This document shows positions 34,501-62,400 of a stretch of 64,000 nt of DNA, piece after piece. The notes below the pieces were generated by a model, which saw only the letters and a list, made by a program, of their open reading frames with translations, did no database searches and was not told the origin of the DNA. The position numbers and the translations under genes are program-made. Origin of the DNA: Escallonia rubra (lineage: Eukaryota; Streptophyta; Magnoliopsida; Escalloniales; Escalloniaceae); NCBI GenBank assembly GCA_033065855.1, contig JAVXUO010000936.1, positions 1-64,000 on the forward strand, read 5' to 3'. Every line of letters starts with the position of its first letter. The stretch's first letter is position 1.

Positions 34501-37500
34501 GAAGATAGGAGGAAAAGTGCATCCTAAAATACAGTTCTCTTTGCTGGATGTTGTACATATGAAAATTGGAACGAATGGAATCACTCATTGTTCGGGAACG
34601 CCAAGTTGTATACTCACAAATTTCAATGAGATTCCATTCATTTTAACTTTATAGAAGTGGATACTTTGCAGAACATTTATCTACTTCAATTTGAAAGAAC
34701 GAGAAAGAACCCGTATTCTTCGCAAAAAAGTAGGTGCACATATGCACCCGTTAAAAGCTCAGTCATTGTCCACTCTTTTTGCTGGACGGAGGACGGCATA
34801 CGTCCCATCGTTCCTTTTCAGAATTTATGGACAGCTTCTTGTGTATAGGCAGGTGACTTTGAGCTTGTATTTTTCGCAACGAGTTTCACTCCTGTTCTGG
34901 CGGTTTTAATCAATAAATTAACTCGTCAAAAAAAATAAAAGTTTGCTGCCCCTCTAAATGATGTCTTCATGAACTTTATTCATGAATAAAAAAAACCAAT
35001 AAAACGATCATATATCATTGCACAAGAAAAAGCAAGCCACAAGTAAATTGAACTTACAAGAACCAGCCAATGCCAATACCACAGCAAGGAAGACGGTGTT
35101 CTATTAGAGGGCTCCCTTGAACAACAGCATAACCTAGCACCGCATCAACCAATAATAAGAATGAAGGAGATCAAAATATATGCAGAAATTAAGGATCCAT
35201 AATATTTTGAAAGCTGCAAAAGTGACACTAGAAACTGGTAACGCCAGGAAAGCAAATATTCATAATGAATGAGTTGAGAACTTGGGGATATTGAAGAAGG
35301 CTAGTCATTGCTAACTGAATACCCATTCCTGGTTTTCATGGAAATTGGAGCCCAATCTGATTCGAAAAGTATTTAACACACTTGACTAATCCAATTGGTC
35401 TAATAGATACGTCAAATGGAACTAACTAAATTTTGCACTATAGCACTATTCGTCCTCAAACTTAACCAAAGTACCCCTGATCCCAGAATTTGTGCTCACA
35501 TTTGACTTGTACGCATGTTAAGCAGTTAAGTCAAATGTCATATGTTTCCCTTTCTATCCCCAGTCTTTCACTAGTATCCTTGTTGGGCCTCCTATTTTCC
35601 TCTTTCTTCATCTTTCAAGCGCTCTCTCTCTCTCTACATAACTCCACCTTGCAGCCGAACCCATGCTCTCTATCTGTCTCTCTCCCTCTCTCTGAGACGT
35701 TCACAAGTTTAAAATAATTAATGCATATGATGTAGCAATAAATTTATAAATTCGAAGGTTCTAACAATTCGACAATTACCTATCCACCTTCATCACCCAA
35801 TTTCCGAACATTCTGACCTAACTTCTGAAGTTGGTACAGTCCGAGCAGTATAACCCAATTAACCACCAATGAACTGGATTTTTGACTTCATCTAACCAAG
35901 TTAAGTTTCTGGGATGTGCTGATTTTAAGCTCTAAAAGTTGTATACTGATTGCCTCAATTATCCAGGACATCCACTATAGCAGAAGAAATGACCGTCAAA
36001 GTCCACCAAGAAAAGTACCTGATCATTATCCCTTTTCGCTAGTATCCTTGTTGGGCCTCCTACTTTTCTCTTTCTTCATCTTTCAAGTGTTCTCTCTCTC
36101 TCTAAAACTCCACCTTGCAGCCGAACCCATGCTCACTATCTGTCTCTCTCCCTCTCTCTGAGGCGTTCTCAAGTTTAAAATAATTAATGCATATGATGCA
36201 GCAATCAATTTATAAATTTGAAGGTTCTAACAGTCCGAAAATTACCTATCCACCTTCATCACCCAATTTCCCAACATTCTCACCTAACTTCTGAAGTTGA
36301 TATAGACCGAGCAGTATAACCCAATTCACCACCAATGAACTGAACTTTTGACTTCATCTAACCAAGTTAAGTTTCTGCAATGTGCTGATTTTAAGCTCTA
36401 AAAGTTGTACTCTGATTGCCTCAATTATCCAGGACATCCACCATAGCAAAAGAAACGACCGTCAAAGTCCACCAAGAAAAGTACCTGATCATCATCCCTT
36501 TGTTATCAACAATTACTAGAAGACAACAACCCAACCATCTCTTGGCTCAAAAAGAAACCCCCCATTCATATCAAATCAAAAGAAAAAAAATTCCAAAATC
36601 TGGGGCGAACGTACACCTCAAACCTACGCAACCAGCTAGTCAAGCGCCCAACCACGCCTGATCGTGCATCAAAACGTCCAGCCACGCCTAATCGTGCATC
36701 AAAACGTATAGCCACGCTAATTGTGCATCACAACGACCAGCCACGCTGAATTGAGCAAGGCGTAATTATACAAGAGTGTATATTTTTGTATAAGGTGCCT
36801 TTTTTTGGATGAATCGAGTTAATGGCCAAGGTTGGTGCTTTGGCTTTTGACTCGGTTGCCGGCAGTCCAGAGGCATGGGGTTGTTGGCAATAGGCGTTCT
36901 GGGGTGGGTTTACTTCCCCATTAAATGAAGGTGGCTCTGCCAGTGTCGCAGGTGGTGGTAATACGAGGGAGGCAGCGCTGGTGATTAGAGAGAGAGAGAG
37001 GGGGAGAGAGAGTGAGAGGATGAACTCATTGCGGGGAACAGCGGTGGTGATCGGAGAGAAATGCGAGAAAACTGAATTCATGGGAGAGAGAGAGAGAGGA
37101 TGAACTCATGGCGGGGAACAGCGATGGTGATCAGAGAGAGATGCAAGAAAATTGAATTCGTGGTGGTGAAACGTTGATGGAATAGAGGGCGATGAAGGGG
37201 GAGTACGAAATACGAGAGAGACTGTTTGCTGGGTCTTTGAGAAAAAAGAAAAGCTTGGGTCCCTTACAGTCAAACCCAACGGCAAATAAAGAAAAGCTTG
37301 TAAAATTTATCACCAAAAATGGGAAGCGAACAAAACTTTTGGAACACCCCAAAATGAAAATATGAGCAGTAATTTTGGGAGGGACGGAGTGCTAGATTGT
37401 TCAATTATTATTACTCAACTAGGTGAATCTGAATAAAAATAAAATCCCTAATTAACATATATCTAGTGCTTTTACTCAAAGGTCATAGCTCAAACAAAAA

Positions 37501-46026: not shown

Positions 46027-47286
46027 TCAATGAATGACAACTGCATCATCATACCTGTTAATTAATTCCTGCCTATCAGGATCCATTTGTTTTGAAACGG
46101 ACGAGAATCCCTTGATAGAAACCAAGCTCTCATTGTAGTTACAAACACCAAAATGCTGCTGCGCGTCATCAATACAAAGATACTCGACTCCACCAGTTCC
46201 CCAATCATACAACACTACCTTGCCCTCGGCATCCTTACCTACAATCTCCCCTTTCCTCGAAAACCCAACAATCCCCACGATCCCTAAGACCGGCCCAACG
46301 GTGAATTTCTTAACCCAATACCCAATCCCATCACCATCATCTTCCATCACCCATACATCAAGCGGTACATACAATGGCCCCGTCTTAGGATACACGATCA
46401 CCGCGAGGTTATCTCTCCACTCCACAAGACAACCCTCAAACACTCCCATCCCGCCAAACATAGGCGCCGGCAGCATGTGAAAAACCCCTTTCTGCACATC
46501 AAACCACACAAACGCCTTCCTAGACCCAAATTCATCATCAATCCCAACAACCCAATATGGAACGCCTTTCAGAATAGCGATACATTTGGTCTGCAAGAAA
46601 GTGAACGGTGGCTTGACGTCAAGCTTCTTCCACGATTCTGCACCACACGAGTACACTTCTACTCTAGCCGGAACCTTCGTCTCCGGCTTGAAATTCAAAA
46701 TGCTGATAACTTTGTAATCATCTCCAACTGGGTCATAACAAAACCCTATAGAAACTCTATCATTGAACACAGGGTTGGGTGCATAACCTGAAAGTTTAAC
46801 CCCCTTGGACTGCTTGGTAGCAGGGTTCCAAATCGTAATGCCGTCACCCCAACGGGGCCTGCACAAACAGACCAATCCGTTAATGGAGCCCACTACTTCC
46901 ATTTCTAGGAAGACCCCGGGAAATGGGTGGTCTAGTTTGGTGAGTTCTTGTCGAAACGGGGTGATAGATACGAGGAAGAGGAGGTGGTCCTCGGATTTGT
47001 GGTGGAGGCTGTGGAGGATGAGGGAGGTGGCGGCGGCGCTAGGGTTTTGGACCGTGGTCTGGAGGTGGGTGGTGATGAATTTGGGGCTTCTGATGAGCGA
47101 CCGCCATGGCTTGGAGACGGATCTGAAGCGTAGGAGGGTCTTGACCGGGAGGCGCGAGAGGATGTTGACTATGACGTCGTGGGGGAGATTGCAGGTGGAT
47201 TTTGGGGCTTGGGGTTTGTTGGGCTTTGGTCGACTGTGGTGGTGGCGGCGGCTTCGTTTTCCTCTGCCATTTTTTCCGGTCGGCAT
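46027..47286 (-). CDS. F-box protein with F-box-associated (FBA) domain
   Basis: An intact single-exon gene of 419 residues. I choose the ATG at 47286 (MPTGKNGRGKRSRRHHH) rather than the ATG 47 codons upstream, because the family usually begins with a short basic leader just before the F-box. The F-box (about residues 32-75) reads CNLPHDVIVNILSRLPVKTL, LRFRSVSKPWRSLIRSPKFI. The FBA-type beta-rich domain follows: GSINGLVCLCRPRWGDGITI, WNPATKQSK, IGFCYDPVGDDYKVI, VEVYSCGAESWKKL and GVPYWVVGIDDEFGSRKAFV. Such proteins bind SKP1 through the F-box and recruit targets to SCF ubiquitin ligases. The family includes CPR30/CPR1-type immune regulators, but the target of this member cannot be read from sequence. 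It has no frameshifts and no introns. Confidence 0.93.
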   Translation of the reverse strand: MPTGKNGRGKRSRRHHHSRPKPNKPQAPKSTCNLPHDVIVNILSRLPVKTLLRFRSVSKPWRSLIRSPKFITTHLQTTVQNPSAAATSLILHSLHHKSEDHLLFLVSITPFRQELTKLDHPFPGVFLEMEVVGSINGLVCLCRPRWGDGITIWNPATKQSKGVKLSGYAPNPVFNDRVSIGFCYDPVGDDYKVISILNFKPETKVPARVEVYSCGAESWKKLDVKPPFTFLQTKCIAILKGVPYWVVGIDDEFGSRKAFVWFDVQKGVFHMLPAPMFGGMGVFEGCLVEWRDNLAVIVYPKTGPLYVPLDVWVMEDDGDGIGYWVKKFTVGPVLGIVGIVGFSRKGEIVGKDAEGKVVLYDWGTGGVEYLCIDDAQQHFGVCNYNESLVSIKGFSSVSKQMDPDRQELINRYDDAVVIH

Positions 47287-48858
47287 TTCTCTGAGATTGG
47301 AAATGGCGTGTGGAGTCACTGAGACGGTGAGGTGAAGTGAAGTGAAATAAGAGGGAGAGACCGTTGAGAGTTCGGAGAGTTGATTTGGTGACCCAAATTC
47401 ACAGTTCAAATCATTCCAAAATTTCAAAAATTTCTTTTTGAACTATTCAGAGTTTGGAGAGTTGAGAGTGAGAGACGTCGGGTCAGAAGTCAAAACAAGA
47501 CCCCTCATCCTCGATGTCCACCTCGGACTTAGACGAGAAACCTCGGCATGGGCAGGACACGTGGAGACAAGTTGTTAAGTGAGAAAACTTTGTCGACAAC
47601 GAGAGCGAAACCTCTTAACATTAAAGTCTCTCTTCAACACGCGAACTCCAGGATTTCGAACGACAATGACAATGAATTTTCAAGAATATTTTCTACTGTC
47701 GCCGGCACAATAACTAACTCAACTTCGTTCACTTTAAGTTAACCGAGACCGTCAAACTCGATTATTTTTTCTGTCTCGTTTATCCAGATCAATTACGATA
47801 GGGACACTTGCCACAATTCCTCGTGAGACCCCTTCCTTTGGCAGTATAAACGTGCCGCCCAAGTCTATAAGTCCAAGGGGATGTGGCTGGCAGTTTGTTG
47901 GCATCTTTTTATTGGTTGTCTTCTTTTCGTTGTTATCACTTCCTCTTTGTAGTTAGTCTTTATCTGTTTTCTTTATTTGCTTCTGTGCTCATTCAAAAAA
48001 AAAAAAAAGAGTTAGTGTTGTTGTTTAGTTTATTTTATGGCAATGCTTATCGGATGTGGGTGTCATTCGACTGTCTTTTATTTGCCTTTTAGTATGCTCT
48101 GTAACCTCCTGTATTTATCTTGGTATATATTTCTGCTCTTCTATCAAAAAAAAAAAAGAAACTGTCATTTCAAGCATGTACTTTGAAATTATGAAGAGAT
48201 TTACCAAAAACAAAAGAGATTTAAGTTTACTAAAATACAATTGATTTTTTTTCAAAACAAAGATGCTAATTTAGAAATTCAATGAAGTTTTTTTTTTTTT
48301 TTTTTTTGGTGTTAATTTTTTCATTTTTGACGCTAAGAATCTAGAAGTCACTAATTTTTTTTCCCGTTCCATGTAAGAGCTAATAGCTTCAACGATTGAA
48401 CAAGATTTTTCATTCCTTAGCAAAAAAGATACGTGAATGTGAAAGAGGGACTAAGTTGAACATAATTGACCGGTCATTCCTTAGCAATCAGAGCATGCTG
48501 AGCAGCTAGACTCTTATGTACCCCTATATATCTGAGGTTTAAGCAGGCTATCCCCTATTTTTTTTTTCTTTTTAGCTTTTTAATTATTGGCTTTTCCTTT
48601 ATTTGGTACCAAAGGAACAAGTTTAAGCTCTTAGCATAAATATCTTTGAAGATTTTAGCATTTTCAGTGACAAAAATGAGTTAACTCACGGTTCTATAAG
48701 TCAAAAGAAAAAAAAGACTTTGTACAACTTTGTTTGCAATTTAAGTTCAAAATGTATGCGAAAGAAAGTTTTTAAAACATTTGATCCATTGGCCGGTGAT
48801 ACATCAAGCTTCCAAAATTTTGTTTGCTAAAATTTGGTCTAGATGTACATTATAACAG
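47287..48858. other. F-box upstream region and retroelement tails
   Basis: The first several hundred bases are the likely promoter side of the F-box gene. Two A-tracts, at 47995-48008 and 48146-48156, each follow a T-rich stretch that looks like the 3' UTR of a non-LTR retroelement. A T run lies at 48289-48307. No coding sequence is recognised. Confidence 0.4.
48850..48858. repeat. 9-bp target-site duplication of the Pack-MULE, left
   Basis: The word ttataacag is identical to 50256-50264 and is directly adjacent to the element's terminal ggg. Confidence 0.95.
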
Positions 48859-49098
48859 GGGTTAATTACAAAACTGTCTCATGAGATTTACACGTTTTTG
48901 CACTTTGCCCCCCGTGTTTACAACTTTTGCAATAGTGTCCCATGAGGTTGATAAAACCATTGCAAACAGCTCCAAAATTGAACGAACGTCCAATTTTGGA
49001 CGTTAAGTCGTCATGTGCGGTGCATATGTCATTTTGGCATGGGCAAATTTGTAATTTCCCCTTCCCCATCTTCCTCACTGTGTTCATCTCTCTCTGTA
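48859..49098. repeat. Left terminal inverted repeat of the Pack-MULE
   Basis: About 240 bp, matching the reverse complement of 50010-50255 with scattered differences. It ends in a CT-rich stretch (tgtgttcatctctctctgt). Confidence 0.9.
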
Positions 49099-49148
49099 AG
49101 ACCTACATGAAGCACCCTCACCTCTTCACCTTTCCATTTACTTCTGCA

Positions 49149-49588
49149 ATGGCTTCAATCACAGCCGAAATAACCCATGAATTCCCACCATTTTTTCGAG
49201 TCTACAAAGATGGTCGCATTGAACGCTACCCAGAGAGCCCTTACATTGAACCAGCCCTCGATCCTGGAACCGGTGTCGAGGCAAAGGATGTCATGATCTC
49301 GTCAGAACCCAGCATCAAGGCACGAGTTTTCATGCCCAGAATCACCGGCCCAGAAGAGAAGCTCCCTCTGGTTCTCCATTACCACGGTGGAGCCTTCTAT
49401 GTCGAATCACCTTTCAACGCCGTAACCCTCAACTTTTAACCTCATTCGTCTCACTGGCCCGGGTCATAGTTGTGTCCGTCGACTATAGGCTCGCTCCAGA
49501 GAACCCGCTGCCAATCCCTTACGAGGACTCCTGGGCCTCAATGCAGTGGGTTGCAGCTCATTTCGGTGGGGAAAGTCCTGAACCGTGG
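49149..49588 (+). pseudogene. Captured carboxylesterase (CXE) fragment
   Basis: The frame from the ATG at 49149 reads [60 protein letters not shown] and [16 protein letters not shown]. It is then broken by a frameshift at about 49415-49430 and resumes as [40 protein letters not shown]. This is the N-terminal third to half of a plant carboxylesterase of the hormone-sensitive-lipase/GID1-like class. The oxyanion-hole motif is HGGA rather than the usual HGGG, and the catalytic serine (GxSxG), Asp and His regions were not captured, so it cannot be an active hydrolase. It starts about 50 bp inside the left inverted repeat. Confidence 0.93.
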
Positions 49589-49981
49589 GGCCAGCCCAAG
49601 TCTAAGATCACCCACCTCGTCTTCTACACCACCTTCGGCGTCGACATGCCTGGTGCCGACTACAAGCTCACCAAGCTCCTCGGCCTCCGCCCCTCCGTCA
49701 AGAGGCTGATGATGTACCAACAGGGCTGCTTCGCCGGCGGCACCGTCCCCCGCCTGGCCAAGGATCTCGCCGAGAACAACGCTGGTGCTTGCGTCTTCGT
49801 CGTCTGCTTCGAAATCATCGCCGTCACTTTCCGTGGACCCTCTGACACCCATCTGGACTCCCTCGCTGGGCAGGCTCTTTTCGGTGATGGTGCTGCCACC
49901 GTGATCGTAGGCGCAGATCTTGATGTCTCAGTCGAGCGGCCGCTGTTCCAACTGGTGTCTGTGGCTGGGACTCAAGGATGA
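49586..49981 (+). pseudogene. Captured chalcone synthase (CHS) fragment
   Basis: From the tgggg junction the frame reads [80 protein letters not shown], and ends [12 protein letters not shown] before TGA. This corresponds to about residues 117-250 of a typical 390-residue CHS. The nucleophile Cys164 (in QQGCFAGG) and the gatekeeper Phe215 (in TFRGPSD) are kept; the catalytic His303 and Asn336 are outside the captured part. The usual CTTSG has become YTTFG, so the piece is inactive and drifting. Its GC content is much higher than that of the flanking DNA. Confidence 0.95.
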
Positions 49982-50009
49982 AAAGATGGGGAAGGGGAAC
50001 AGAGAGAGA

Positions 50010-50255
50010 GAGAGACGAACACAATGGGGAAGATGGGGAAAAGGAAATTACAAATTTGCCCATGCCAAAATGGCATGTGCATCGCACATGACGACTTAAA
50101 CGTCCAAAATTGAACGGATGTCCAATTTTGGAGTTGTTTGCAATGATTTTGTCAACTTCGGAGGACACTATTGCAAAAGTTGTAAACACAGGGGGGGGGG
50201 GGGGGGTAAAGTGCAAAAACGTGTAAACCTCAGGGGACAGTTTTGTAATTAACCC
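50010..50255. repeat. Right terminal inverted repeat of the Pack-MULE
   Basis: Inverse of the left repeat. It contains a 16-base G run (50191-50206) where the left repeat has a shorter C run. Confidence 0.9.
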
Positions 50256-50264
50256 TTATAACAG
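50256..50264. repeat. 9-bp target-site duplication of the Pack-MULE, right
   Basis: The word ttataacag is identical to 48850-48858. Confidence 0.95.
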
Positions 50265-59432: not shown

Positions 59433-62400
59433 AGCGACTCTACAGACAATTTATGTGCAGCAAGCCAAAACGGCGTCGGTTTTGGCTTCCAAAACCCACC
59501 ATTTCAGTTTTCACCCGCCCTGCTTTGTTAAAAAATGAATTGATGCGTTGGGCAATCTATTGTTACCATTGCATGCTTTTCCTTTTTTCTTTGTTTCTGT
59601 ACCACAAAGCATAAATTTCATGCACTAATATACCTCGCTTCCAGTCTAATTGTCACTTGCATATAGATTTCCCTCATTTCTTTTCATTATTCACTTCATT
59701 AATTAGGCAAAATAAGTTCAATTCCAGCCCGCCTTTCTTTTTACAAACCACAAGCAAGACTGAATACTCGCTAAAGTGTGTACGTGTTGTGTTTTTGGGT
59801 GTATGTTTAACAGAAATACATAGTTGATCTGTTTGCAGGTTTATAAATGGTTAGCACACATGTCTATGTGTTTGTGTTATGTTTTTATGTGATTGTCCAG
59901 CTTGTAGTTATAAGTACGAATTTGGCAGAATTACATGGCTGATGAGGCACATTCAAAAACGTCACAAAGAAATTTTTAATCATTAGCGATGTTGACGAAT
60001 CTGGATACTTGGTTGATGACAAAGGACTTGATTCATCTAACTATGACGTTTTAGAGGTTGAGAATCCCCATTTTGAGGATGGTGTGCATGACATTGGTGA
60101 GGCTCAAAGTATAACCTTCAAAGATTGTGATACTCATGCTGAAACTATCACCGTCCGAAATTATGATGCTCGTGATGGTGGTAAGGGTTGTAGTGAATTT
60201 GATAGTGAACAAATACTTGGAAAAGTTTTTGCAACCGAAGAAGAGGCATGCTTTTTCTACAACCAGTATGCTTTGGTGAAAGGTTTTGGAACTCGTTTAC
60301 ACTTTTCAAACAAGAGAGGGGCCATGAAGCAAGTTTATAGAAAGCAACTCGTCTGCAACAAGCAAGGGTTCAAGTGCTTGAAGGACAAGAGACATATTGG
60401 GAGACAACCAAAGCGTCGGAGGGAAACGAGAATAGGATGTGAGGCTATGTTTCAAATTTCTTTATCAAAAGATGGGTATTGGTTTGTCGAAAAGTTTAAT
60501 GACGTGCATAATCACGAGATGATCGGTACACCATCTAAAGTGATCAAGTATCGCTCGCATAGTAGGTTTCATCGTTCACGCGCATGTAAAAGGCTAATAT
60601 CAGATTTTAGTGAAAGTGGATTGAGACCATGCCAAATCACAAAGGCGGTGAACATTATCAAACCGTTTGAAGAAGTTGATATCACTCCAAAACAGTGTTC
60701 GAGTATCTCGTGAAATGAACGAAAGAACAATGTAGGGCATGAATGTCTAGGCATTATTAAACATTTTCAGGAGAAGTCAATTTCTGATGATTCTTGGTAC
60801 TTTGCCATGGAGTTAGCAAATGATGAATCTCTAAGAAGTGTTTTTTGGGCTGACGGAAGGTCAAGATCGTTATACACACAATTCCAGGATGTAGTCATAT
60901 TTGATGTGACCTATAAGACAAACAAATTCAGGAGATGCCAATTGCTCCTTTTGTAGGAGTGAATCACCATCGGCAGTCCATATTATTTGGTGCAACATTG
61001 TTAGAGGATGAAACGGAGGCAACATTTGTATGGTTATTTGAACATTTTCTGAAGTGTATGTTCAATATACCGCCAGCTGCGATCATTACTGATCAAGATG
61101 GGGTTATGGGTAATGCAATTCGTAAAGTTTTTCCTGAGTCTCGACATCGTTATTGTGCATGGCACATTAAGAAGCATGTCATGGAGCATCTTCAGCCATA
61201 GCGAGCTCGCTACAATGACTTTCACGAGGCACAAACTAACTGGGTCAAAAGCCGAACCATAGAAGAATTTGATAATGGATGGAAAACTTTATGTCAAAAG
61301 TATGAAATCGATGAGAAGAGTTGGTTAGCAAACATGTATAGCATGCGTCAGCATTGGGCAAAGGTGTATTCGAAAGACATTTTCTTTGCCAAAATGACCA
61401 CAAGTGGATGAAGTGACAGCATACATGCATTTTATGATGGGTATGCAAATTCTAACACAACGTTAAATGAATTTGTTAAACAATATGATAAGGCAGTAGC
61501 TTCTCGAAGACGTGCAGAAAAAGATGAGGACTTTGTGACTAGGAATTCAAAGGCCGTGTTCTATTCTGGTCACCCAATTGAAAAAATAGTCGGAGAATGC
61601 TACACTCGTAACTTGTTTGAGATCTTAAAAAAAGAGCGGAAGTCTAGCTTGAATTGTGCTCATGAAACATTGACTAAAGAGGCCCATGTAATTACATATA
61701 TTGTGGGCTTCATAGATGATGATAAAAGTAGATGGAGATTAGTTAACTATGACAACCGTGAAGGTGTAAGGGCTACTTGTTCATGCGCTAAGTTTGAGAC
61801 TGAAGGTATCTTATGCAAGCATATTCTTTATATCATGAGAAAAAAGAAAGTAATGGCCCTACCGGAGCATTACATTTTACCTAGATGGACTATAAATGCC
61901 AGGTACAAGGTGGGAAATATTGGTTGTGAGTTTAGGAAAATTAGTAAATGTCAAAATGAAAAGGGCTTAGCCCTTTTACTTTGTGGTCACTTCGAGCAAA
62001 ATTTAACAAGGTGATAGAAAATGCCGGCAATTTCTCGTCTGATTTAGAAAACCTTGACGCGTTTCTTGAAAATATTTTGGAGTATCAAGGTCGGAAAGAA
62101 ATGGAAAAACAAATTAGTAACGGTGAAACATTAACTCAAGTTGGTTCAAGTGAAAATGCATTGCAAGCGGGAGCTATGCATCAAATCACTGTCAGAGATC
62201 CGGCTGCTCCAGTTAAGACAAAATGGCGTCCAAAGGTTGCTACCAAATTCAAATCTGGTATGGAGTTGGCTAGTGAAGCCAAAAGACAAAGAACTTGTTC
62301 TTATTGTCATGTAAGAGGTCATAATATTACTAGATGTTCCCAAAGAAAGGTATGCAAACAAACTGAGTAACGCTTTGTTGTTTATTATTATTATTAATTT

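Follow-up and report, generated by a model that had tools for sequence, protein, structure and literature searches.

A probable Pack-MULE joining carboxylesterase and chalcone synthase fragments in Escallonia rubra, with an apparent record of serial gene capture

Pack-MULEs of rice were reportedly described by Jiang et al. 2004. Chimeric and multi-copy Pack-MULEs in rice are known from parts of PMC8277862 and PMC4858842, and rice Pack-MULEs are also treated in a part of PMC13317346. The way in which these elements acquire genes is described as unresolved in portions of PMC8277862 and PMC3310237.

In this study, a window of 64,000 nucleotides from Escallonia rubra was analysed, and the locus at 48859-50255 was compared with these elements. 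Five features of Pack-MULEs were found: long terminal inverted repeats (TIRs), a target duplication of 9-11 bp, the lack of an internal transposase, host fragments with identifiable donors and copies at independent sites. The locus is very likely a non-autonomous Pack-MULE that belongs to a MuDR-type family of high copy number and underwent serial capture, and its copies would now be neutral and probably methylated passengers. No published report of this carboxylesterase (CXE)-chalcone synthase (CHS) case was found among the papers listed for Pack-MULEs and chalcone synthase or for Escallonia and transposable elements, and the novelty of serial replacement is uncertain against the portions of the literature considered here. 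Candidate donors, intermediates and exact breakpoints occur in one genome, thereby making the gap-repair, fork-switching and aberrant-excision models testable.

Structure, copies and family of the element

The element ends exactly at 48859 and 50255, and its position was confirmed to the base. The first-pass annotation had claimed TIRs of about 240 bp, which agrees with the repeats of 237 (left) and 249 (right) bases found here. They are identical in 213 of 249 alignment columns, and at the main gap of their alignment the right TIR is longer by 11 bases, most of which are G on the + strand. The perfect 9-bp target duplication claimed in that annotation was also recovered (48850-48858 = 50256-50264); it scores 9.0, above the 99.9th percentile of 6.8 obtained from 2000 randomly chosen pairs of positions. 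Two fragments of unrelated gene families lie between the repeats, as had been proposed. Positions 49149-49436 resemble plant CXE-type enzymes (best E 3e-20, PDB search), a later internal part corresponds to CHS residues about 116-247 (E 4e-66), and a single reading frame holds both PF07859 and PF00195 in Pfam. The CXE/CHS junction is in frame, and the CXE frame is broken inside CXE by a stop at 49437-49439. The GC content is 0.52 in the CXE piece, 0.61 in the CHS piece and 0.40 in the window. Inspection of the ORFs revealed no transposase inside the element, and Pfam analysis of two ORFs returned only the CXE and CHS families. Both pieces were where the first-pass annotation had placed them, except that the CXE piece begins at 49097, about 52 bases upstream of the ATG, instead of at 49149, and that GTGG at 49585-49588 is common to both. 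The features are as follows:

48850-48858 (no strand): left target site duplication TTATAACAG, identical to 50256-50264
48859-49095 (+): 5' TIR, 237 bp, starting GGGTTAATTACAAAACTGTC, from the TIR alignment
49097-49588 (+): CXE fragment with a 5' leader of about 52 bp followed by the coding sequence of the first ~149 residues; its identity to the intact gene L029:2075-2572 on contig C1870 is 91%
49437-49439 (+): stop from a 1-base loss in a T run, common to 17/17 aligned chimeric copies
49585-49588 (+): CXE/CHS junction GTGG, a 4-bp microhomology present in both candidate donors
49585-49965 (+): fragment of CHS exon 2 that corresponds to donor bases 271-651; the CHS gene on contig C2913 (L031) matches it with 92% identity
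49966-49988 (+): remnant of the original right CHS capture edge, about donor 871-895, seen by eye in the window copy without a BLAST report there
50007-50255 (-): 3' TIR of 249 bp, from the TIR alignment; a G-rich run lies near 50193
50256-50264 (no strand): right target site duplication TTATAACAG, identical to 48850-48858

Elsewhere in the window, a tandem repeat with a 466-bp unit, two copies and 93% matches lies at 35566-36501.

The genome searched comprised 566,129,122 bases in 3222 contigs. For the chimera, the best 40 of 1494 first-look candidates were scored, and the copy counts are lower bounds; at least 136 matching pieces for the element were detected on this basis. A search for other copies within the same inverted repeats had been advised, and it yielded 17 aligned chimeric copies, window included, which represent 16 insertions according to flank comparison. 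L022 and L023 are alike in both flanks and constitute one insertion on two contigs, and no other pair among the 17 behaves in this way. Exact target duplications of 9-11 bp, all different, flank 12 of the 17 copies (11 of the 16 sites). Imperfect duplications were observed in L018 (one mismatch), L024 (8 bp), L015 (two mismatches) and L017 (a doubtful T run), and the chimeric copy L021 is truncated. Divergence between nearest copies ranges from 1.7 to 7.4%, with the lowest value belonging to the pair L022/L023. The element has moved as a unit, as 17 copies at 16 sites with differing target duplications indicate. The alignments leave out four partial or interrupted chimeric loci (L025-L028) and L036, and the flank check leaves out these five loci and L034. 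Flanks that are 92-100% alike in L022/L023 and in L044/L046 show that some loci stand twice in the assembly, as haplotypes or duplications.

The 20-base TIR end has 583 exact occurrences in the genome (288 + 295), and the reversed control has 0. Among 100 TIR ends listed, 54 form 27 facing pairs less than 8 kb apart, with no other neighbour arrangement at that distance; 24 of these pairs span 923-1610 bp and three span 5829-5847 bp. All 17 further loci fetched (L051-L067) have a second, inverted TIR; they came from a TIR search in which the best 40 of 1678 candidates were scored. L059 carries an ATG18/WIPI-like piece (PF21032; PDB match, E 2e-41) and forms a group of six similar elements with L060 and L063-L066, and a piece of histone H2A was identified in L067 (E 3e-7). 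The other internal pieces tried from the sampled TIR relatives matched no Pfam family or a weak one. L056 is a TIR element that seemingly combines pieces of other groups, including the ATG18-like string; a plastocyanin-like match in it is weak and falls short of the Pfam cut-off.

Candidate partners of the element were found via the spacing of exact TIR ends. These elements of about 5.83 kb (L068-L070) are MuDR-like and 91-94% identical to each other, have the same terminal 20 bases as the window copy, and their TIRs are 79-85% like those of the window over 148-216 bases, with one L070 end at 70%. L069 contains PF03108 and a SWIM zinc finger. Target duplications of 9 bp were seen by eye in L069 and L070, and none was evident in L068. 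The reading frames are broken in all three. Among the elements found, these represent the autonomous lineage best as candidates, and they are putative sources. The transposase loci L047-L050, four of 150 domain matches listed, were rejected as partners because these TIRs are absent from about 3.5 kb on each side. With candidate donors, further copies and a candidate autonomous relative at hand, the description of the locus as a Pack-MULE and a two-gene chimera was upheld.

Other MULE-related sequences were observed as well. L049:910-2138 is a separate 1.2-kb inverted-repeat element, and its terminal 31 bases are 81% like the TIR of a second element branch described below. MULE transposase domains are very abundant in the genome, with 3309 first-look candidates, and all of the best 150 that were scored exceed the cut-off. 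Many of the matches listed (best 150 of 3309) have open frames near 777-783 aa and equal scores. These domain matches suggest that another MULE family may have been recently amplified in this genome. In the window, a FAR1-like gene lies at 59946-62014 (+), where a FAR1 DNA-binding domain and a SWIM domain are spread over two frames; the FAR1 family is considered a derivative of MULE transposases.

Candidate donors and the order of capture

Donor CXE and CHS genes, for which a search had also been advised, have candidates in the same genome on C1870 and C2913, with 91% and 92% identity to the window fragments, respectively. The CXE candidate is the first gene of a tandem cluster and is open for 305 aa. 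In the CHS candidate, the exon-2 frame is open for 343 aa (stop to stop), and the first-exon frame is open and separate from exon 2. These two genes may be the exact parents, and a CHS donor closer than the C2913 gene could exist. For an F-box piece found in some related elements, four genes on C1918 are 88-94% identical, and the best two (94%) are open for 400 and 402 aa. CHS-only elements begin 12 bases before the start assigned to exon 2 (intron end GATCTACTACAG, placed by eye), and this start upstream of the exon points to capture from genomic DNA rather than from spliced message.

The related elements form a ladder of breakpoints, given here in donor coordinates. CHS-only elements of type A have CHS 90-895 between two TIRs in L032, L033, L038 and L040, with L033 ending at 892; L034 carries CHS 135-895 and was read from the fetched part only, its left TIR lying outside. 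The long chimera, L022 and L023, has CXE 350-847 joined to CHS 271-895 between its TIRs. The short chimera (the window copy, L009-L021 and L024) is present as 15 copies at 15 sites and has CHS to 651 followed by the 871-895 remnant, which was detected by BLAST in 10 of the 15. The F-box type (L044-L046) consists, after the TIR, of CXE 350-426, about 714 bp of F-box sequence and CHS from 514. Its three copies represent two insertions, given that L044 and L046 have both flanks in common. In L044 and L045, CHS runs to 651 and then from 871 to 892, which is the same deletion as in the short chimera, and the CHS match of L046 stops at 623. The right CHS/TIR edge is alike in selected copies of the CHS-only, long and short chimera types. 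Junction matches are given as raw lengths: GTGG at the CXE/CHS junction, GC at the deletion (as in the window copy) and AAG at the right CHS/TIR edge, all three by eye, and ATAAC at the CXE/F-box junction; the F-box/CHS joint is ambiguous. In a second element branch (L035, L037, L039 and L041-L043), the TIRs are mostly 77-88% like those of the window, and CHS 177-713 or 177-590 is carried; in L037, an LRR N-terminal domain is fused to CHS.

Ordering the element types by a tree of the CHS pieces was rejected, because its support is too weak (4 of 25 inner branches, L024 left out), and the order of captures therefore rests on the breakpoints. A single insertion underlies the long-chimera step, and two insertions underlie the F-box step. 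In the window itself, an F-box gene with an FBA_3 domain lies at 46027-47442 (-), with its 5' side facing the element about 1.4 kb away; any relation of this gene to the F-box piece in L044-L046 would be conjectural.

The shared breakpoints suggest the following course of events. An element would have captured about 800 bp of CHS exon 2, and the 5' end of a CXE gene would later have replaced the left CHS part by copying across the 4-bp match. An internal deletion would have shortened the CHS piece, and the short chimera would then have spread to 15 or more places. One offshoot would have had its middle replaced by the 5' end of an F-box gene, with both outer edges kept. Gap repair that was interrupted and switched templates, either in the course of transposition or after it, is the likely process, and the transposase may have been supplied by relatives of the 5.8-kb elements. 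We consider it reasonably probable that Pack-MULEs are remodelled by serial internal replacement, in which a new capture overwrites the middle and earlier outer remnants stay by the TIRs, such that the order can be read from the outside in (CHS; CXE/CHS; CXE/F-box/CHS). In this Escallonia family of hundreds of copies, two or more element lineages would have taken up CHS, in one case together with CXE and in another together with an LRR gene.

Two other origins were weighed against this course. The same junction occurs in the chimeric copies examined, as would be expected if a pre-existing CXE-CHS fusion had been captured once; however, every CXE-CHS junction among the matches listed (best 40 of 1494 candidates and the CXE search) adjoins at least one TIR, the candidate donors lie on different contigs, and the CHS-only elements already have the right CHS/TIR edge of the chimera, which makes a single capture of this kind barely credible. 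Alternatively, a CXE element and a CHS element could have recombined or been aberrantly excised as neighbours in a Pack-CACTA-like manner, instead of CXE being copied directly from a gene. CHS-only elements with TIRs in common with the chimera exist, L026 and L027 have a TIR and CXE without the CHS/right half in the fetched DNA, and the Pack-CACTA tandem-array model is described in a part of PMC13317346. However, the CXE query alone gave 29 genome matches (21 chimeric loci, four of them partial, three of the F-box type and five genes or gene-like sequences), among which no complete CXE-only element was found, and we regard this origin as unlikely. The 4-bp junction match fits direct copying and two-element recombination alike.

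Coding potential, methylation and small RNAs

The locus had been proposed as a possible new chimeric gene, and this proposal was not sustained. The in-frame CXE/CHS junction speaks for a protein-coding gene kept by selection, but the same 1-base CXE frameshift is present in 17/17 aligned copies, and the longest ATG frame varies between copies from 77 to 298 aa and differs in place. The codon tests covered 16 copies, leaving out L024, and substitutions common to L022 and L023 stay outside the private counts. In CHS, 57 of 88 private substitutions are nonsynonymous and 31 synonymous (0.648 vs 0.64 expected), and five private stop gains were counted vs about two expected. The corresponding numbers in CXE are 52 and 25 of 77 (0.675 vs 0.704 expected), and two wrong-frame controls (0.688 vs 0.684 and 0.636 vs 0.706 expected) behave like the true frame. 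Within the tested CHS stretch, a stop occurs in four of 16 copies vs 4.3 expected. One result leans in the opposite direction: the pairwise dN/dS of the 16 copies is 0.44 vs 0.58 in a neutral simulation, in which 2/200 runs were as low; this test presupposes a star tree and treats L022 and L023 as separate copies. The private counts were preferred over this test because shared ancestry is not counted many times in them, and purifying selection was rejected, as the star-tree hint is absent when private substitutions alone are used. We concluded that there is no convincing sign of selection since dispersal, and a functional gene is not supported.

The proteins closest to the chimera come from Escallonia herrerae. 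At least eight of them combine PF07859 and PF00195 (P0001-P0003, P0121-P0123, P0126 and P0129), which would favour a gene, and P0001 and P0123 are named chalcone synthase by UniRef. Judged on protein sequences only, however, P0001 and P0002 follow the shifted frame, and the other inspected entries seem to skip the frameshift at differing positions. These skips look like predicted introns, and the eight proteins look like gene models over Pack-MULE copies. Taken together, a selected coding gene is very improbable. Some E. herrerae database proteins, two of the eight bearing the name chalcone synthase, appear to be transposon-borne fragments that can mislead flavonoid-gene studies. The element is of value for the succession of captures that it apparently documents.

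In the 15 short copies, 440 of the 692 departures from the majority are C-to-T or G-to-A. The per-site C-to-T rates are 0.057 at CG, 0.064 at CHG and 0.026 at CHH, about twice as high at CG and CHG as at CHH, and the rate of the reverse change is 0.0096. In plants, a C-to-T bias at CG and CHG is expected from cytosine methylation. This pattern suggests that the element copies are methylated. The first-pass annotation had also raised the idea that a transcript of the locus could be a source of small RNAs directed at CHS or CXE paralogues. Exact 21-mers in common with the window copy number 50 for the CHS donor and 78 for the CXE donor, the CHS-only copy L032 has 285 in common with the CHS donor, the C-to-T change is biased to CG and CHG as in methylated elements, and siRNA from captured genes in maize is reviewed in a part of PMC13317346. 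On the other hand, both candidate donors have retained open frames and their identity to the window copy reaches only about 91-92%, and such an action of the copies on these genes would appear doubtful.

Comparison with described elements

Among animal elements, Pack-TIRs such as Ssk-FB4 are explained in a part of PMC8277862 by gap filling or fork switching with breakpoint microhomology, followed by transposition, which is similar to the process proposed here. However, Ssk-FB4 belongs to another element type and kingdom, and the coding function argued for it in that part of the source is not supported in Escallonia. Soybean Tgm-Express, as portrayed in a portion of PMC1947982, is likewise a dicot DNA transposon with host gene fragments, but it is a CACTA element, whereas the Escallonia element is a Mutator element. 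Tomato PM-ZIBP is a dicot Pack-MULE with an identified parental gene and, according to a part of PMC3310237, 13 copies and one single-TIR copy in tomato. It has one captured gene and tandem TIRs, in contrast to the single TIRs and two or three genes in Escallonia.

The Pack-MULEs of rice are similar in being non-autonomous MULEs with long TIRs, a 9-bp target duplication, host fragments, GC-rich captures, chimeras of several genes and multiple copies. The Escallonia family differs in its host, a dicot (campanulid), which suggests that Pack-MULE families can reach a large size in a dicot. It also differs in its intermediates with shared breakpoints, which suggest successive replacement within one element lineage.
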